Shown here piece after piece: positions 10,147-18,961 of a stretch of 64,000 nt of DNA; the stretch's first letter is position 1; each line of letters begins with the position of its first letter. The DNA lies in the NCBI RefSeq assembly GCF_900566075.1, contig NZ_UPHU01000001.1:4836325-4900324 (forward strand), given 5' to 3'. The position numbers and the translations under genes were made by a program. The notes beneath the pieces were generated by a model. The model was given only the letters and a program-made list of their open reading frames with translations, was not told the origin of the DNA and did no database searches. The stretch comes from Mycobacterium pseudokansasii. GTDB lineage: Bacteria; Actinomycetota; Actinomycetes; Mycobacteriales; Mycobacteriaceae.

Positions 10147-10393
10147 CGAAAACGACGAAAATCACGACGTGACCGGCTCTATTACACCTATTAGTCAGCT
10201 CGGCTATGAAGCCTGCCGGGATGAACTGATCGAGGTGGTGCGGCTTCTGGAACAGGGCGGCCTGGATCTCGATACGTCGCTGAAGCTCTGGGAAAGGGGC
10301 GAGCAACTCGCCAAAAGGTGTGAGGAGCACTTAGCTGGCGCTCGGCAACGGGTAACCGATGCGCTGGCGGCCGGCGCGGCTGCGGACGACTAG
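10136..10393 (+). CDS. xseB: Exodeoxyribonuclease VII small subunit
   Basis: This 85-aa helical subunit decorates the XseA coiled coil. The hallmark segments are [41 protein letters not shown] and the [11 protein letters not shown] helix. It starts with ATG 10136 inside the last codons of xseA (11-base overlap), so the pair is translationally coupled. The length equals the H37Rv Rv1107c protein. Confidence 0.95.
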
Positions 10394-10440
10394 CGCATAC
10401 CGATGCCCGCCGGTGTCCCCGGGCGACCGTTATTCCAAAC

Positions 10441-10454
10441 TGGAACACGTTTTA
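10441..10454. promoter_or_regulatory. KstR-type operator upstream of the 3-beta-HSD gene
   Basis: TGGAACACGTTTTA matches the KstR consensus TNNAACNNGTTNNA at every fixed position. It sits just upstream of the TATGCT -10 (10457-10462) and the start at 10470, where a repressor would block RNA polymerase. From the literature as I recall it, Rv1106c belongs to the cholesterol-responsive KstR regulon. Confidence 0.8.
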
Positions 10455-10456
10455 GT

Positions 10457-10462
10457 TATGCT
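10457..10462 (+). promoter_or_regulatory. -10 element (TATGCT), leaderless start at 10470
   Basis: TATGCT, seven bases, then ATG 10470. This argues against the upstream in-frame ATG at 10458, which overlaps the -10 itself. Confidence 0.5.
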
Positions 10463-10469
10463 TCGCCGC

Positions 10470-11579
10470 ATGGGTGATGCATCGTTGACAACTGAACTCG
10501 GCCGCGTCCTGGTAACCGGCGGCTCAGGCTTCGTCGGGGCCAACCTGGTTACCACGCTGCTCGAGCGGGGATACCAGGTGCGTTCCTTCGACCGCGCGCC
10601 GTCGCCGCTACCCCCGCACCCGAAGCTCGAGGTGCTGCAGGGTGATATCACCGACGCGGCCACCTGCGCCACGGCAGTCGACGGCATCGACACGATTTTC
10701 CACACCGCGGCGATCATCGAGCTGATGGGCGGCGCATCGGTGACCGACGAATACCGGAAGCGCAGCTTCGCGGTCAACGTCGGCGGCACCGAGAACCTGG
10801 TGCACGGGGGGCAGCGGGCGGGGGTGAAGCGGTTCGTCTACACCTCCTCCAACAGCGTGGTGATGGGCGGCCAGAACATCGCCGGCGGCGACGAGACCAT
10901 GCCCTACACCAGCCGGTTCAATGACCTGTACACCGAGACCAAGGTGGCTGCCGAGCAATTCGTGTTGTCGCAGAACGGTATTGACGGCATGCTCACCTGC
11001 GCCATCCGGCCCAGCGGCATCTGGGGCCGCGGCGACCAGACGATGTTCCGCAAGCTGTTCGAAAGCGTGGTCAAGGGCCAGGTGAAGGTGTTGGTCGGCC
11101 GAAAATCGGCGCGGCTCGACAACTCCTACGTGGACAACCTGATCCACGGATTCATTCTCGCCGCGCAGCATTTGGTGCCCGGGGGAACCGCACCCGGGCA
11201 GGCGTACTTCATCAACGACGCCGAACCCATCAACATGTTCGAGTTCGCCCGGCCGGTGGTCACGGCCTGTGGCGAAAGTTGGCCGCGGATAAGAGTTTCC
11301 GGCCGCTTGGTGCGCGACGCCATGTCAGCGTGGCAGTGGCTGCACTTCCGGTTCGGGCTGCCGAAGCCGCCGCTGGAACCCCTTGCGGTGGAGCGGCTTT
11401 ACCTCGACAACTACTTTTCGATCGCCAAGGCGCAGCGTGATCTGGGCTACCGTCCGCTGTTTACCACCGAGCAGGCCACAGCCGAATGCCTGCCCTACTA
11501 CAAGGACCTTTTCGAGCAGGTCAAGGCGGCAGCCAAACCCCATCTGGTGTCTGTCGTCGACGCGGCACCACCGGAGTAG
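10470..11579 (+). CDS. 3-beta-hydroxysteroid dehydrogenase / isomerase, Rv1106c-like
   Basis: This 369-aa short-chain/extended NAD(P)-binding enzyme oxidises 3-beta-hydroxysterols such as cholesterol to the 4-en-3-one. It has the Rossmann GGSGFVGANLV at the N-terminus, FHTAAIIELMGG, VYTSSNSVVMGG (catalytic Ser region) and DLYTETKVAAE with the YxxxK pair. The C-terminal part RLYLDNYFSIAKAQRDLGYRP is the family tail. A KstR operator lies directly upstream. I chose ATG 10470 on promoter spacing; ATG 10458, which adds MLRR, is the other annotated possibility. It follows xseB after a 76-base gap and probably has its own promoter. Confidence 0.95.
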   Translation: MGDASLTTELGRVLVTGGSGFVGANLVTTLLERGYQVRSFDRAPSPLPPHPKLEVLQGDITDAATCATAVDGIDTIFHTAAIIELMGGASVTDEYRKRSFAVNVGGTENLVHGGQRAGVKRFVYTSSNSVVMGGQNIAGGDETMPYTSRFNDLYTETKVAAEQFVLSQNGIDGMLTCAIRPSGIWGRGDQTMFRKLFESVVKGQVKVLVGRKSARLDNSYVDNLIHGFILAAQHLVPGGTAPGQAYFINDAEPINMFEFARPVVTACGESWPRIRVSGRLVRDAMSAWQWLHFRFGLPKPPLEPLAVERLYLDNYFSIAKAQRDLGYRPLFTTEQATAECLPYYKDLFEQVKAAAKPHLVSVVDAAPPE

Positions 11580-11634
11580 CGCGAGCCCCCGAGCCGGCAC
11601 CACTGGTTGGGCAGAATCTCCCCGATGTTGTGAG

Positions 11635-12904
11635 CTAGAAGGGCGGCGGGTCAGCCGCCATCCGGGCGTGGTTGATGCCGCGCTCCCGGCTGATCCGCGC
11701 GGCCCGTTCCTGGGCACGGGTTCGGCGGCGAGTTGGCATCATCAGTCCGCGCTTGTCCCCCGGCGGCGGCACAGCCGGAGGCGGTGCCAGTATGCCCGTC
11801 GGCATTCCTAGTGCGGGAAAGAGCTGGGCGCCAAGAGGTTCGGTTGTGTACTCATGACCGGTCGGCGAAGTCCAAATCACGGTTCCGTCCGGTTCTTGAC
11901 GGTCTTGCCACCCGCTGTAGAAGGTCTTCAGCAAATGGTGGTAGCGGCACAGCAGCTTGCAGTTCGACGGATGAGTCAGACCTCGCGGATAGGGCACGGT
12001 GTGGTCGATGTCGCACACCTGCGCCGGCTGATCGCACCCGGGAAAGCGGCACGTAAGATCCCGGAAACGGATGAATTCAGCCAATGCCGCAGAGGGCCGA
12101 TATCCGGCTTCCGGACGAGCCTGCGGTATCGGCAAGGGCTTGCTCCTGGCATGACCGGCCAAATCCCGCAGCAAAGCCGACGTTAGCGGGCCGAACCCCG
12201 GCAGATAGGACAACGCCTGCGAATCGCCGTCGACGGCAGCCTGCTCAGCCAGTACATGAATCACCACGCTCGTGGCCGGGCGTCGTTGTGCCGCTGGGCA
12301 ATCCGAAGCCCCACACTGGCACCGTAAGACCTCCGATCCGGCAGCGAGGGCTGCCAGGGCATCGGCACGGCGTTGGTCCTTGGTGCGCGGGTCGTCCCCG
12401 CAGACCGTATCGGCCAATGCGTCAAGCCTGCGATCCAGCGCGGCCCCGTCGGTAGCGTGCAGCTGCGCGAACATTCCGGCCAGCCCTGGATGTGTCGGAC
12501 CGAACTCGACGTAACGGTCCTCGGTGCGCCCTCCCGGCACGCGCAAACCAGCCGGATCAAATCGCGCAACCCACATATCAATGCGCTCAACCAATTTCGG
12601 TGCCGACAGTCGCATCCATCGCGAGGCGTGCCGGGCCAGCGCGGCGTCCAATTCCGCGATCAGCTCGGGGTCGTCGACCAGCCCAGTGCGGTAAACCACC
12701 GCAGCGATCAACCGGAAGTCAATATCGCCGCGCGCGAAGACCTCAGCAACCCAGGGCAGGCGCTCCCGCAACGCAATCGCGTGGCGCAACCGCCCCGCCG
12801 CCCGGCCACGACTGATGCGCAACGCGGCGGCGACTTCGGCCACCACATTCTCGTGTCCGTCGATGGCCCAGTCCAGCCGATCGGCGTCGTCTTCGGGCCA
12901 TGCG
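11635..12904 (-). pseudogene. 13E12-repeat-family DUF222/HNH endonuclease, 5'-truncated
   Basis: The frame encodes the middle and C-terminal parts of the mycobacterial 13E12 repeat family: WAIDGHENVVAEVAAALRISR, RGRAAGRLRHA, MRLSAPKLVERIDMWVARFDP, LDRRLDALADTVCGDDPRT, then the HNH nuclease CRFPGCDQPAQ...CDIDHTVPYPRG...HPSNCKLLCRYHHLLK with its zinc cysteines and DIDH. The usual first 60-100 residues are missing. Instead the frame runs into DNA that, in another frame, encodes a flavin monooxygenase. Any usable start (for example 12942) would add foreign residues. The HNH residues themselves are intact, so a shortened product cannot be ruled out. Confidence 0.8.
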
Positions 12905-13255
12905 CCAAAGGCTACCGTCGTGCTCGAGGCGGCGGACCTCACGGCCGTAGCGGATCAACTCGTCGACGCCATAGCGGCGGGCCACGGCCTCGAAGTACGC
13001 GAGAATCTCGGGGCCGGGTGCGAACGCGTGGCTCCATTCCGGATTCGGCGCGAAGCTGTAGGTGTACAGGTGTGCCGGCACATCGCAGGCGATCCCGGGG
13101 TAGGTGTTCTCCCGCCAGGTTCCGCCCAGCCGGTCCGCTTTCTCATACACCGCGACGTCGGTGAAGCCGGCCTCGCGCAGCTTGATGGCGACCAGCACTC
13201 CGGCCATTCCGGCGCCGATGACGACGAAGCGCAGGCCAGCCCGATCCGGACTCAC
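12905..13255 (-). pseudogene. Flavin monooxygenase (Baeyer-Villiger type), N-terminal fragment
   Basis: About 117 codons of an FAD-dependent monooxygenase remain. They show the FAD Rossmann FVVIGAGMAGVLVAIKLREAG, VAVYEKADRLGGTWRENTYPG (typical of the BVMO / 4-hydroxyacetophenone monooxygenase group), DVPAHLYTYSFAPNPEWSHAF and the start of the next region, EVRRLEHDGSLWR. The protein should be 480-650 aa. At about 12905 the sequence changes into the 13E12 HNH gene, which lies in another frame, so the rest of the enzyme is lost. GTG 13255 overlaps the stop of the dehydrogenase gene by four bases, so it was the last coupled gene of that operon. Confidence 0.85.
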
Positions 13256-14358
13256 GGGGTGATCACTGCGTGCACGGGCGGCAGACCGGCACGCTCACCG
13301 GCCATGGTGGCGAGCAGGTCCTCGGCGTCCTCGAGTCGCACGCAGCATCGTGGCAGGCTCTCGAACGGGTAGCGCCCCGATGCCAGCAGCGCCAGCGCAG
13401 CCCGGTAGGCGACGACGTCCACCCCGAGCGCGCCGAGGATGCGCAGCTCCTTGAACACCACCAGGTCCGGCGAGAATCCGGGAACCCCGGCGACGGCGCC
13501 TCTGGTGCCCGCGACCACGACCGTTCCGGCGGGCCGCGCGAGCGCGATCGCCTGTGCGAACGCTGCCGGCGCCTTGGCGGTGACGTCGACGACGACGTCG
13601 GCCAGCCCACCTGTCGCATTATGCAGCGCCGCCACCGGGTCGTCCGTCGCGACGTCGACGGCGAGGTCCACGCCGAACTCGGGAGCCAGTGCCAGCCGGT
13701 CGGCGTCGCGGGGACCCAGCCCGGTCAGCATGACGAATGCCGCGCCGGCTTCCTTGGCCGCCACCGCGGCGCACAGTCCACGGACACCCGGTCCGAGCAC
13801 CGCGACCACGTCACCCGCACCCGTTCCTGGAACCGTTGTACCCCAACGTATTCCGGCTCCCAGCGGATTGAACAAGGTGGCCACCGCGGGAGTAAGACCG
13901 GCCGGCACCGGCAACACCATCGAGTCGGGCGCCAGGTATTGGTATTCGGCGTAGCCGCCCCACAGGCCCGGCGCATGGTCGACCGGGATGAAGCCGTACA
14001 TGTCGGCCAGGCCGTGGCGTGCACAGCGGCGGTACTCACCGGCGAGGCAGTTCGCGCACTGACGGCACGACTGGAACACCTCGACCGCCACCCGGTCGCC
14101 GGCGGCAACTCCCCAGCGCCGGGCCGCTTTAGACCCGATCGCCTCGATGATCCCCACGGTTTCGTGACCGGGAACGAACGCGAAGCCACCGCTGAGCTCT
14201 CCGGTGTATTGCTCGTGGTCGGTGCCGCACAATCCGCAGGCTTCCACCCGCACCAGCGCGTCGTCAGCGCCGACCTCCGGCACCGCAAGCTCCCGGACAA
14301 CCAGGCGGCGCGGCGCCTCCAGGACCAGCGCTCGTGACGTCGTGGCGCCCGCGCTCAT
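13252..14358 (-). CDS. Zinc-dependent alcohol dehydrogenase (MDR family)
   Basis: This 368-aa medium-chain dehydrogenase has catalytic-zinc ligands in ACGLCGTDH (residues 40-48) and in PGHETVG. Four structural-zinc cysteines sit in SCRQCANCLAGEYRRC. The cofactor domain contains VVAVLGPGVRGLCAAVAAKEAG. The substrate is unknown. It is followed with GTGA overlap by a Baeyer-Villiger-type monooxygenase stump and preceded at 27 bases by a carboxylesterase, so it probably oxidised a secondary alcohol to the ketone used by the monooxygenase. The start ATG 14358 has GAGAGGTGGG upstream; an in-frame GTG nine bases earlier lacks a site. Confidence 0.9.
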   Translation of the reverse strand: MSAGATTSRALVLEAPRRLVVRELAVPEVGADDALVRVEACGLCGTDHEQYTGELSGGFAFVPGHETVGIIEAIGSKAARRWGVAAGDRVAVEVFQSCRQCANCLAGEYRRCARHGLADMYGFIPVDHAPGLWGGYAEYQYLAPDSMVLPVPAGLTPAVATLFNPLGAGIRWGTTVPGTGAGDVVAVLGPGVRGLCAAVAAKEAGAAFVMLTGLGPRDADRLALAPEFGVDLAVDVATDDPVAALHNATGGLADVVVDVTAKAPAAFAQAIALARPAGTVVVAGTRGAVAGVPGFSPDLVVFKELRILGALGVDVVAYRAALALLASGRYPFESLPRCCVRLEDAEDLLATMAGERAGLPPVHAVITP

Positions 14359-14385
14359 CGCACCCACCTCTCGATCCAGCCACGG

Positions 14386-15930
14386 CTAGCGGAAGCCGAC
14401 GACCTCGCCGCCCCAGGCAGCTCGGATGTGGCCGTCGAGATCGCGCGCGACAGTGTCGGTTCTGTTGATGACCAGGCAGACCCGGTCGGCGTCGTCGTAC
14501 GACGGCCAGTCCGGCTCGCCCACCGGACCCGCGGGCTTGCCGTGCCTGGCGAAGTTGACCCACCGGGTCCGCACTCTGCCCGAAACCGCCTTGGCGGTCC
14601 TGACGCCGCCCAGGCGCAGCGTCGGGTCGTGGGGACCCCCGAGATTGCCCCAGACATAAGGTAATTCGGTCGCGTGCGCGGCGTTGACCAGCAGCAGCTT
14701 CAGCAACGGCGTCGAATAGTCGAAGCGGTACAGGTATACCGGCGCCACCTTGCGGTGTCCGTCAGCCAGCCACACCGAGGGCATCCGGAAGCCGACATCG
14801 GTGGCGATGCTCAGCGGCCGGGCCTTGCGCCGGATGCGCGAATAGGCCAGCCCGATCTGCTCCTCGGTGGGCAATTGCAGGTCGGGCTGTTCGGCGGCGA
14901 TCTGAGTGAACATCGACGTGATCGCGTGCGGAGTGATCGGCATCAGCGGCGAGCGCATCAACCGAAACAACGCCGCCTCGTGCTTGTTGGTGCCGATGAT
15001 CAGCGGGACGGGCTGGGAGCGGCCCTCCTGCGCCACTTTGACCGGGTAGTCGTCCAACAGATCACCGTCGACGATCGGGACGAACGCCAGCGTGCCGGGA
15101 TTACGTACCGGGACTTCGTCGAACACTTCTTTCGCCGCGCCGACGATCGTGGCGATGGGGACATCGACCAGCCGGTCCGGCTCGGACGTGGCGATACCCA
15201 GTTTGTCCAAAATGCACACCGCCGCCCGCCGGGCCCTGTCGCGGTCGTATACCGAGGTGGCCGGCGAACTCTGGGCGATTGCGCGCCCGAACAGCCCGGC
15301 CGCCGCCGGGACGGCCAGCAGGGTCGTGACGATCCCCGCTCCCGCGGATTCGCCGAACAGCGTGACGTTGCCGGGATCACCGCCGAACCCCGCGATGTTG
15401 TCGCGGATCCACTGCAACGCGGCCAGCACGTCGCGCAGCCCGATATTGGAGTCGAAACGTCGCCGTGCGGTGCCCAACGACGACAGGTCGAGAAAGCCCA
15501 GCACTCCGAGCCGGTAGTTGATGGTCACCACCACCACGTCACCGCTGGCGGCCAGCCGCCGGCCGTCGTAGAGGGGCTGGCTGCCCGACCCCAGCAGGTA
15601 GGCGCCGCCGTGCAGCCACACCATCACGGGTTTGCCGTCGCCGGGTTGGGTGCCGGGCGGTGCCCAGACGTTCAGCCGCAGACAGTCCTCGCCCTGGGGC
15701 GCTCCCAAATCGAGTGGCATGTTCGGGATGACCGGCTGCGGGCAGGCCGGGCCGAAGCTGGTGGCGTCGGCCACCTCGGTCCATCGCTGCGGCGGTTGTG
15801 GCCCCCGGAAGCGCAGGTCGCGCAGCGGCGGCGCGGCATACCGCACGCCTTTCCAGGTCTTCGCCGACACGTCGCCGGTGCCCCGGACCGGGCCGTAGCT
15901 GGTTTCGACCACGCAGTCGTCGATCGCCAT
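14386..15930 (-). CDS. Type B carboxylesterase (para-nitrobenzyl esterase family), full length
   Basis: This 514-aa alpha/beta hydrolase has VWLHGGAYLLGSG (oxyanion hole), NVTLFGESAGAG with nucleophile Ser195, the acid in IIGTNKHEAALF and the His in ANAAHATELPYVWGN in the place of the family's GxxHxxELPYVF. The length is that of complete family members. In H37Rv the equivalent position holds Rv1104 and Rv1105, which I recall as two fragments of one esterase; here the gene is unbroken. No signal peptide is present. It lies 27 bases upstream of the dehydrogenase gene on the same strand, forming an ester/ketone catabolic cluster. Confidence 0.92.
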   Translation of the reverse strand: MAIDDCVVETSYGPVRGTGDVSAKTWKGVRYAAPPLRDLRFRGPQPPQRWTEVADATSFGPACPQPVIPNMPLDLGAPQGEDCLRLNVWAPPGTQPGDGKPVMVWLHGGAYLLGSGSQPLYDGRRLAASGDVVVVTINYRLGVLGFLDLSSLGTARRRFDSNIGLRDVLAALQWIRDNIAGFGGDPGNVTLFGESAGAGIVTTLLAVPAAAGLFGRAIAQSSPATSVYDRDRARRAAVCILDKLGIATSEPDRLVDVPIATIVGAAKEVFDEVPVRNPGTLAFVPIVDGDLLDDYPVKVAQEGRSQPVPLIIGTNKHEAALFRLMRSPLMPITPHAITSMFTQIAAEQPDLQLPTEEQIGLAYSRIRRKARPLSIATDVGFRMPSVWLADGHRKVAPVYLYRFDYSTPLLKLLLVNAAHATELPYVWGNLGGPHDPTLRLGGVRTAKAVSGRVRTRWVNFARHGKPAGPVGEPDWPSYDDADRVCLVINRTDTVARDLDGHIRAAWGGEVVGFR

Positions 15931-16196: not shown

Positions 16197-17780
16197 TTAG
16201 AACCCGACCGCTTGGCCGTCGCGTCGGGGATCGCTTGCAGCTAGGTAGCCGTCGTCCAGACACCAGATCGCCTGGCAACTACCGAATTGGTTGTAGTCGT
16301 CAACCGTAACCAACTCATGCCCACGTCTAGTCAGCTCGTCGACGGTTGACGCGGGAAAGCCGTCCTCCACGGTGACCTGCATGCCTTGCACCACTCGGAA
16401 ACGTGGACCATCGCATGCGGTTTGCGGATTTTGACCGTAGTCAACGATCCGTACCACGACTTGCGTCTGGCCCTGCGGCTGCATGGTGCCGCCCATCACC
16501 CCGAAGCTCATCACCGGGCTGCCGTCCTTGGTCACAAACCCCGGCACGATAGTGTGGTAGGGCCGCTTTCTGGGTCCGACCTGGTTCGGATGGCCTTGCT
16601 GTGCCACGAAATTCGCGCCCCGATTGTGCAACGAGATACCGGTGCCGGGGACCACCACGCCAGAACCGAAGCCCATGTTGTTGGACTGGATCATCGACAC
16701 CATCATCCCAGCGCTGTCTGCGGCCGTGAGGTAAACCGTTCCGCCGCTTGGCATGCCGGCGTCAAACGGCTGCGCCAGCCGCATGTCAATCTGGGCCGCC
16801 CTGGCGGCCAAGTACTCGTCGTCGAGGAGTTGGACCGGGGCGAACTGCATGTAGTCAGGGTCGCCGACATAGGCCTGCGCATCGGCGAAAGCCAGTTTGA
16901 TCGCCTCGATCTGCACATGCACACTGTCTGCTGAATCGACACCAAACGCGGCCATGTCGAAGTGCCGCAGAATGCCCAACGCGATCAACGCGACGATGCC
17001 CTGACCGTTCGGCGGAATCTCGTGCACCGTGTAGCCGCGGTAACCATGGCTGATCGGTGTCACCCAGTCCGCACGGTGTGCAGCAAGGTCGGCCACCGTC
17101 ATGACTCCACCGTGCGACTTCGCATGTGCCGCCATGATTTCCGTCAGCTGCCCGTGGTAGAAGGCGGCCCCGTTGCTGGCCGCGATCTTTTCCAACGTGC
17201 ACGCGTGGTCGGCAAACCGGAAGACCTCGCCGGCCCGCGGCGCCCGCCCGTCGGGCAGGAACGCCTCACCGAAGCCCGGCTGACCCTCCAGCAGCGAAAC
17301 CTGTGCTGCCCACTGTTTAGCGATCGTCGGGGAGACCGGGAACCCGTTGCGCCCGTAATCGATTGCCCGCTCGAAGAGGGCAGCGAAGGGCAGCCGTCCA
17401 AATCGCGCGTGCAACTCAACCCACGCCGACACCGCTCCGGGCACGGTCACCGCATTCCAGCCCAAGCTCGGTACGCCTTGCTCACCGAAATACTCCGGGG
17501 TCCACCCGGCGGGTGAGCGACCCGAGGCGTTGAGGCCATGCAACTGGCCGCCGTCCCACACGATCGCGAAAGCATCTGACCCAATGCCGTTGGACACGGG
17601 TTCCACCAGGGTCAGCGTGATCGCCGTCGCAAGGACCGCATCAACGGCGTTGCCGCCCTGAGCCAGCATTCGCAACCCGGCCTGCGCCGCGAGTGGCTGC
17701 GAGGTGCACACCACATTGCGGGCCAGCACCGGTGTCCGGGGCCATCCATAGCGAAGTTCCCACGAGGGCGACACCGTCAC
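16197..17780 (-). CDS. Gamma-glutamyltransferase-family Ntn hydrolase
   Basis: This 527-aa protein of the GGT family would autocleave into large and small subunits. The likely nucleophile is Thr348 in PSGGTVYLTAAD. Downstream are SMIQSNNMGFGSGVVVPGTGI, then LHNRGANF, and the MSFGVMGGTMQPQGQ segment, all family marks. The N-terminal half has the usual AAQAGLRMLAQGGNAVDA and NGIGSDAFAIV. No signal peptide is visible although many GGTs are exported, so it may be a cytosolic member acting on gamma-glutamyl amides or a cephalosporin-acylase-like relative. It overlaps the bicupin gene by four bases (ATGA), which suggests a two-gene operon. Confidence 0.9.
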   Translation of the reverse strand: MTVSPSWELRYGWPRTPVLARNVVCTSQPLAAQAGLRMLAQGGNAVDAVLATAITLTLVEPVSNGIGSDAFAIVWDGGQLHGLNASGRSPAGWTPEYFGEQGVPSLGWNAVTVPGAVSAWVELHARFGRLPFAALFERAIDYGRNGFPVSPTIAKQWAAQVSLLEGQPGFGEAFLPDGRAPRAGEVFRFADHACTLEKIAASNGAAFYHGQLTEIMAAHAKSHGGVMTVADLAAHRADWVTPISHGYRGYTVHEIPPNGQGIVALIALGILRHFDMAAFGVDSADSVHVQIEAIKLAFADAQAYVGDPDYMQFAPVQLLDDEYLAARAAQIDMRLAQPFDAGMPSGGTVYLTAADSAGMMVSMIQSNNMGFGSGVVVPGTGISLHNRGANFVAQQGHPNQVGPRKRPYHTIVPGFVTKDGSPVMSFGVMGGTMQPQGQTQVVVRIVDYGQNPQTACDGPRFRVVQGMQVTVEDGFPASTVDELTRRGHELVTVDDYNQFGSCQAIWCLDDGYLAASDPRRDGQAVGF

Positions 17781-18838
17781 TCCCCCATCGCTCGTTCATC
17801 CAGCGGGTTGTTTCGCGTCACGATCAGCGGATCGGTGTTGGTGAACGGGAATTGCGGCAGGTCGTCGATGTGAGTGTTGAATGTGGCGGCGAGGACCTCG
17901 CGGGAATACGCGCTGACCGACGCCCGGTACCCGATGTCACCCGGGGTCGGCTGGTCGAAAAAGATCGCGAAGTGGATGTCGGGCGCGTCGACGACCTCGA
18001 TGTGATGGGGGTAGGCCCGCGGGACGAAGTACACGTCGCCCTGGTTGAGGTAATATGTGTCGAGCGATCCATCGGGATCCATGATCGTCATCCGCGCGGA
18101 ACCTGTTTGTACGTAACCCATCTCGGCGGTGATCGGATGCCAATGCGGTTCGCGCATTCCATCTTCACGCACTCGCAGCGAGTACATCGACAGGTCCTTC
18201 AGCGCCGGCCAGAACTGTACCCGCGCCAGCCGTGCCGAGCCGACGGCAATGCCGACCGGCGGGCTCTGCGCCTCCACGGAGAACTTGTGCGGATCGTTAA
18301 ACCAAGCGGTGGCAGGCACATTCGGCTTGCCGACCCGGGCCGCCAGCGCACGATCGGTGGTGTCGCGGCGCAGTGCAGCGAAGTCCGACGCCGGCAGGTC
18401 GTAGGTGTTGCCCAGCACCGCGTCGGTCATTGCTCCGAACGCCGCGCCCAGACCGAAATCCTCTGGGCGCTCGCTGCGGAAGGCGATGATGAACTCCGCC
18501 ACGTCCTCCCCGATGTTTTCGATATGGTGCAGCGATCCCGAATCGATGTGGAACATGTCTCCGGCGCTGACGACAAAGCTGGCGAACTGGCTATAGGCGT
18601 CAAGGACTGAGACCAGCGACGTTCCGGAGACGCAATAGGTCAACTCGTTGGCGTTGGCGTGCCAGTGCGGTGTACGCATCGCACCCGGATGGATGACCAC
18701 CCGTTTGATGGACATTCCGCGCAGTATCGGAAAGTTGTCGCCCGTCAGACGCCGGATGGAGCCCAGATCGGACTCCTCAACGATCTCACCCTCAACGAGG
18801 GATGCCGCATGCCTGCTAGAACGATCTGAAGTTGCCAC
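17777..18838 (-). CDS. Bicupin, oxalate decarboxylase-like
   Basis: This 353-aa protein has two germin-type cupin barrels. The first carries TPHWHANANELTYCVSG and HIDSGSLHHIENIG; the second carries EPHWHPITAEMGYVQTG and FVPRAYPHHIEVV. Each has the HxH, Glu and distal His set that binds Mn or Fe, as in oxalate decarboxylase (OxdC). OxdC also needs a flexible lid Glu, which I cannot place with certainty, so the reaction remains open (decarboxylase, oxidase or other cupin). The start GTG 18838 has GAGGAAC upstream; the frame stays open to 18961. It is followed by GGT with an ATGA overlap. Confidence 0.85.
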   Translation of the reverse strand: MATSDRSSRHAASLVEGEIVEESDLGSIRRLTGDNFPILRGMSIKRVVIHPGAMRTPHWHANANELTYCVSGTSLVSVLDAYSQFASFVVSAGDMFHIDSGSLHHIENIGEDVAEFIIAFRSERPEDFGLGAAFGAMTDAVLGNTYDLPASDFAALRRDTTDRALAARVGKPNVPATAWFNDPHKFSVEAQSPPVGIAVGSARLARVQFWPALKDLSMYSLRVREDGMREPHWHPITAEMGYVQTGSARMTIMDPDGSLDTYYLNQGDVYFVPRAYPHHIEVVDAPDIHFAIFFDQPTPGDIGYRASVSAYSREVLAATFNTHIDDLPQFPFTNTDPLIVTRNNPLDERAMGE

Positions 18839-18961
18839 TCCGAGTTCCTCACATCCTGTTTGAACCACTGTCGGCTTGCTGCCGGTCTGCTGGTCGAGAC
18901 ATCGCGGCTGCCGGGCGTGTTCGGCGGACACCATCGCGTCCATGACGACCACCGAGCACAA

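Follow-up and report, generated by a model that had tools for sequence, protein, structure and literature searches.

The window analysed here, a 64,000-nucleotide stretch of the Mycobacterium pseudokansasii genome (a member of the M. kansasii complex; 6.43 Mb, 2 contigs, listed completeness 100), carries on its minus strand, in this order, an esterase gene, an alcohol dehydrogenase gene, an ORF with an FAD-Rossmann motif and a DUF222 ORF, the last two overlapping in different frames. This arrangement raises the question of how the beginning of a flavin monooxygenase gene came to be joined to a 13E12-type HNH gene, and whether the latter invaded an operon or had been its neighbour all along. 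The best explanation, which we consider very probable, is that one deletion in the lineage of the window fused the two genes, then neighbours.

Organisation of the locus and position of the junction

The first two genes are intact, as the initial annotation had stated: the carboxylesterase family gene (14386..15930, minus strand) encodes 514 aa matching PF00135 over nearly its full length, and the zinc-dependent alcohol dehydrogenase (ADH) gene (13252..14367, minus strand) encodes 371 aa with both PF08240 and PF00107, each identified from its ORF and Pfam domains. Their dN/dS values against five relatives (0.14–0.21 for the two genes together, 0.14–0.20 for the esterase) are those expected of working genes. 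The ADH stop overlaps the start of a type I Baeyer-Villiger-like monooxygenase gene, of which a 5′ remnant that keeps the first Rossmann motif was recognised by homology (12899..13255, minus strand), and this meets, at 12898..12899, a 13E12-type DUF222-HNH gene that has no 5′ end and is otherwise open (11635..12898, minus strand; Pfam and homologues). Two overlapping chimeric ORFs on the minus strand span the join, and the claim that the truncated genes lie in different frames is borne out by them: one of 170 aa (12743..13255) comprises the monooxygenase stump and 51 out-of-frame residues from the 13E12 side, and one of 435 aa (11635..12942) has a GTG start and comprises 14 foreign-frame codons of monooxygenase DNA followed by the 13E12 remnant. 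Beyond the 13E12 3′ end lies a convergent 3-beta-hydroxysteroid dehydrogenase (3-beta-HSD) family gene (10359..11579, plus strand), a flank common to the relatives. On the other side, gamma-glutamyltransferase and bicupin genes (16197–18961) adjoin the esterase; this pair occupies the same place in M. persicum and M. attenuatum and was unmatched in the loci fetched from M. innocens, M. gastri and M. ostraviense.

The join was located using a 656-base query across it, searched against 396 genomes of the genus drawn from a larger group; 99 genomes, the source genome included, matched at E values up to 1e-20. The 15 strongest monooxygenase matches besides the window's own ended at query positions 352–357, with weaker matches stopping earlier, and the 29 strongest 13E12 matches began at 358–365 in 28 cases and at 384 in one, with none starting before. 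Together these ends and starts place the break at 12899/12898, leaving a stump of 118 full codons and two bases, with base 12899 itself fitting neither side in the relatives shown. The sharp switch that had been placed at about 12905, after some 117 codons, is thus real and its position shifts slightly. Around the break the sequence continues as monooxygenase in seven monooxygenase relatives and extends back as 13E12 in 16 loci of that family, which represent 14 distinct genes, and since homology switches sharply on both sides, chance is excluded and both genes are truncated at a single point, as first proposed. Inspection by eye against the relatives revealed no clear microhomology beyond 1–2 bp at the junction, and the absence of a longer shared stretch would fit end joining.

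The junction is known from one genome of the window's species. Although 45 plasmid records matched the junction query, none did so over 80% of its length, and among the 20 of these 45 matches listed all covered the monooxygenase part only. Among the titles and abstract openings listed for literature on 13E12/DUF222-HNH genes and on the M. kansasii complex, no account of the junction was found.

Two truncated genes

Type I Baeyer-Villiger monooxygenases convert ketones to esters using NADPH and O2, and are recognised by the fingerprint FxGxxxHxxxW(P/D) flanked by two Rossmann motifs, GxGxx(G/A). Comparison with five named relatives (M. persicum, M. innocens, M. gastri, M. attenuatum and M. ostraviense) identified an intact monooxygenase of 485–499 aa in all but M. 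attenuatum, which leads us to reject a naturally short enzyme, and each of the four intact proteins contains the fingerprint and two Rossmann motifs, GAGMAG and GTGSSA. The protein used as query, that of M. ostraviense, matches type I Baeyer-Villiger enzymes with E values of about 1e-65 to 1e-62, the solved enzymes being steroid monooxygenase (4ap3), phenylacetone monooxygenase (1w4x) and cyclohexanone monooxygenase (6era). Unlike these enzymes, the window copy breaks off ahead of both the fingerprint and the second Rossmann motif; a pattern search found neither in the monooxygenase portion of the 170-aa ORF, a further pattern match at residue 152 lying within the out-of-frame tail. When the source genome was searched with an intact monooxygenase, residues 3–118 matched at 91% identity, which is the stump itself, and the other 21 places were paralogues or parts of paralogues at no more than 48% (best full-length paralogue 46%), so that the lost part was not found elsewhere in this genome. 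The window monooxygenase gene appears to be dead. The M. attenuatum monooxygenase is also in pieces, with an internal loss of ~228 bp, and remains recognisable to somewhere between residues 170 and 202; as this copy extends past the window's break, the two losses are distinct events.

On the other side of the junction, the window DUF222 domain scored 229.6 bits against a cut-off of 24.4, covering profile positions 26–306 of 306, whilst a complete 13E12 homologue was matched from position 2. In a genome-wide DUF222 search the window copy started at profile position 16, and among the 17 other places scoring >170 bits, 16 started at position 2 or 3 and one at 4. The HNH profile PF01844 gave 11.9 bits in the window, under its cut-off of 21.4, as did the complete homologue with 12.5. 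Across the 13E12 homologues examined, which came from loci found by the junction and locus searches, an N-terminal stretch absent from the window copy is conserved in all 14 distinct genes, and in each the upstream codons end in GELYARRA (GELYVRRA in one) directly before the junction. The first start codon lies 40–59 codons ahead of the junction in 12 of these genes and the open frame extends much further upstream in two, so that a 13E12 gene naturally starting at the junction was rejected, none of the 14 doing so. Both observations that the initial annotation had named as counting against a fusion, a naturally short monooxygenase and a 13E12 gene beginning at this very sequence, therefore fall away.

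The window gene resembles the 13E12 repeat family (REP13E12) in having the same DUF222 domain (230 bits), a weak HNH-like C-terminal stretch and many dispersed relatives in the genome; unlike that family it is without its 5′ codons and begins within another gene. The names REP13E12, HNH and DUF222 are tied together in an excerpt of PMC10589994. With the start of DUF222 lost, the window 13E12 protein is probably non-functional. A PADLOC search gave no match for the window DUF222 protein or for one complete homologue, and membership of a defence system was rejected on this basis. DUF222 is matched at 22 places in the source genome, where two pairs of near-identical dispersed copies were also observed (98.6% over 1380 bp and 99.2% over 1566 bp).

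Remnants in related species and the probable ancestral gene order

The relatives retain traces of the 13E12 gene at the corresponding place, its 3′ end (65–222 bp) adjoining 3-beta-HSD in four of the five. In M. innocens and M. ostraviense the last 65–70 bp of 13E12 follow ~5–10 bp after the monooxygenase stop, in M. gastri a spacer of ~50 bp is followed by 222 bp of 13E12, and in M. persicum a 67-bp remnant lies next to 3-beta-HSD on a different contig from the monooxygenase; M. persicum and M. gastri have a common spacer past the monooxygenase stop (48 bp at 90%). In M. ostraviense, M. innocens and M. persicum the locus matches 13E12 solely over the 3′ end of the gene, at 11631..11700 of the window (minus strand). 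Two loci, those of M. persicum and M. attenuatum, are divided between contigs, and in the latter no remnant was found in the 3.2 kb that separate 3-beta-HSD from the contig end. The M. gastri remnant (locus L051, 12624–12845) contains an inverted stretch of ~40 bp.

Because these remnants stand beside 3-beta-HSD, a 13E12 gene must have lain between the monooxygenase and 3-beta-HSD before the species split, and the order of the remnants suggests that the two genes were at that time neighbours on the same strand. The proposal that a deletion or recombination joined them gains support from the intact monooxygenases and 13E12 remnants kept by the relatives. The picture of an operon "cut by" the 13E12 gene does not hold, since the remnants put that gene already downstream and its own 5′ end went together with the monooxygenase 3′ end. 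The expectation that the monooxygenase would be intact in relatives, with a complete 13E12 gene after it, was realised in its first half, in four of five; both genes complete were seen together at the locus in none of the five.

We therefore favour a single deletion between old neighbours, which can be set out as follows. In the ancestor of the M. kansasii complex the ADH–monooxygenase pair would have lain between the esterase and the convergent 3-beta-HSD gene, and the monooxygenase would have been followed immediately, on the same strand, by a presumably complete 13E12 gene. A deletion in the window's lineage, probably a single event of the end-joining type, would have taken the last ~367 monooxygenase codons, a short spacer and the 5′ codons of 13E12, amounting, by an estimate from the relatives, to at least about 1.27 kb (~1.1 kb from the monooxygenase, ~48 bp from the spacer and at least 120 bp from 13E12). 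The outcome would be two truncated genes, out of frame with each other and joined at 12898/12899. Two successive deletions leaving one visible end would give an alternative course.

The interval between monooxygenase and 3-beta-HSD has five structures in six species: that of the window, which retains most of the 13E12 gene, that of M. gastri, one common to M. innocens and M. ostraviense, and those of M. persicum and M. attenuatum, in both of which the contigs are broken. A gene judged from its sequence to be PE_PGRS-like (locus L039, 6488–7593) immediately adjoins the 13E12 remnant of M. persicum, and another (locus L052, 12083–12704) lies near the broken monooxygenase of M. attenuatum; both fall within the interval that the deletion affected in the window. 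Much the same junction between monooxygenase stop and 13E12 stub is present in M. innocens and M. ostraviense, although each of them is closer, in synonymous distance, to another species (M. persicum, M. gastri) that is without it, pointing to parallel deletion or exchange. A broader reading, in which the DUF222-HNH gene seeded repeated rearrangement of this interval, lineages losing different parts of it or gaining PE_PGRS-like genes there, and in which the gene or its 3′ end may provoke breaks, is in our judgement very unlikely.

It is very unlikely that the 13E12 gene was instead a late arrival, a mobile or converted copy that took the place of the monooxygenase 3′ part by insertion with deletion. 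Genes of this type are indeed dispersed, as the 22 DUF222 places and the near-identical copy pairs of this genome attest, but the remnants of the same 3′ end beside 3-beta-HSD in four of five relatives imply that the gene was present before the split, and the 13E12 part of the window matches the rest of its own genome at just 69–72% over 86–231 bases, so a close donor copy is absent.

Esterase, ADH and monooxygenase outside the complex

The wider history of the locus was surveyed in 198 genomes of the genus drawn from a larger group, 34 of which, outside the complex, gave an esterase match at E = 0. In all 26 of these for which a 3-beta-HSD place was listed, the esterase and 3-beta-HSD lie on the same contig, about 30–1301 bp apart; for the remaining eight the 3-beta-HSD place was not among the matches listed, and weaker esterase matches far from 3-beta-HSD (e.g. 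in G185 and G054) were left uncounted. A tblastn search of the eight outgroup gaps of at least 494 bp found no ADH, monooxygenase or 13E12, and the presence of a 13E12 gene in these larger gaps was rejected accordingly. As the esterase adjoins 3-beta-HSD without ADH or monooxygenase in all 26 outgroup genomes compared, parsimony suggests that the latter two were inserted beside an old esterase.

Among 80 ADH loci, 11 (four from the M. kansasii complex) include a monooxygenase relative (36–100% identity over >250 residues), and 11 include an esterase relative, at 89–95% identity in the five M. kansasii-complex loci alone and at 37% in six others. The ADH and monooxygenase genes of one ADH locus (L090) overlap in a manner similar to those of the M. 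kansasii complex; in M. sp. SM1 the two are separated by a nitronate monooxygenase gene. A functional ADH–monooxygenase pair is plausible from these gene arrangements, and the esterase may have provided a third step after them. The full route put forward in the initial annotation, from alcohol through ketone and ester to acid, has weaker support than the fusion itself.

Probable timing, and rival readings of the join

The stump has dN/dS values of 0.09–0.14 against four relatives (113–117 codons compared) and the intact monooxygenases 0.13–0.21 over six relative pairs; values of 0.35–1.47 for M. attenuatum, which derive from 34–38 poorly aligned codons of a broken copy, were not used. Since the stump values are not above those of the intact pairs, there is no relaxation and the deletion is probably recent.

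The 13E12 side bears on a further reading, that the 435-codon chimeric ORF is a functional new gene expressed from the ADH operon and yielding a DUF222-HNH protein with a replaced N-terminus. The ORF is open, with its GTG start inside monooxygenase DNA, and its retained 13E12 part shows third-position-biased divergence from six homologues (dN/dS 0.13–0.20, dS near 1.0–1.3), but this constraint is long-term, can wholly predate the fusion and is uninformative on the time since. The missing start of DUF222, a stretch kept in every one of the 14 homologues, and the apparent dispensability of the copy at this locus, of which four of five relatives hold scraps and in the fifth none was found, make a functional chimera highly improbable. 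An assembly error joining two distant sequences has an equally slight chance: repetitive 13E12 copies can generally mislead assemblers, but the assembly comprises 2 contigs at full listed completeness, the lost monooxygenase part was not found in it, both flanks are syntenic with the relatives and the window's 13E12 copy is no near-identical repeat.

Implications

The deletion between old neighbours is lineage-specific and amounts to ordinary pseudogenisation, neither its mechanism nor its parts being new. It resembles the mycobacterial regions of difference, likewise lineage-specific deletions with truncated genes at both ends. Deletion regions have been described for M. kansasii in PMC11316565, the main text of which does not name this locus by gene, with zero occurrences of monooxygenase, 13E12 or HNH.

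The locus offers a well-resolved case of the decay of a mycobacterial gene pair, and a warning for annotation, in that what look like a short oxidoreductase and an HNH protein are here the stumps of two genes. Were the junction fixed in the species, it would mark a lineage of the M. kansasii complex. Relatives with an intact enzyme, set against a lineage that has lost it, provide a natural handle on the role of the ADH–monooxygenase pair.
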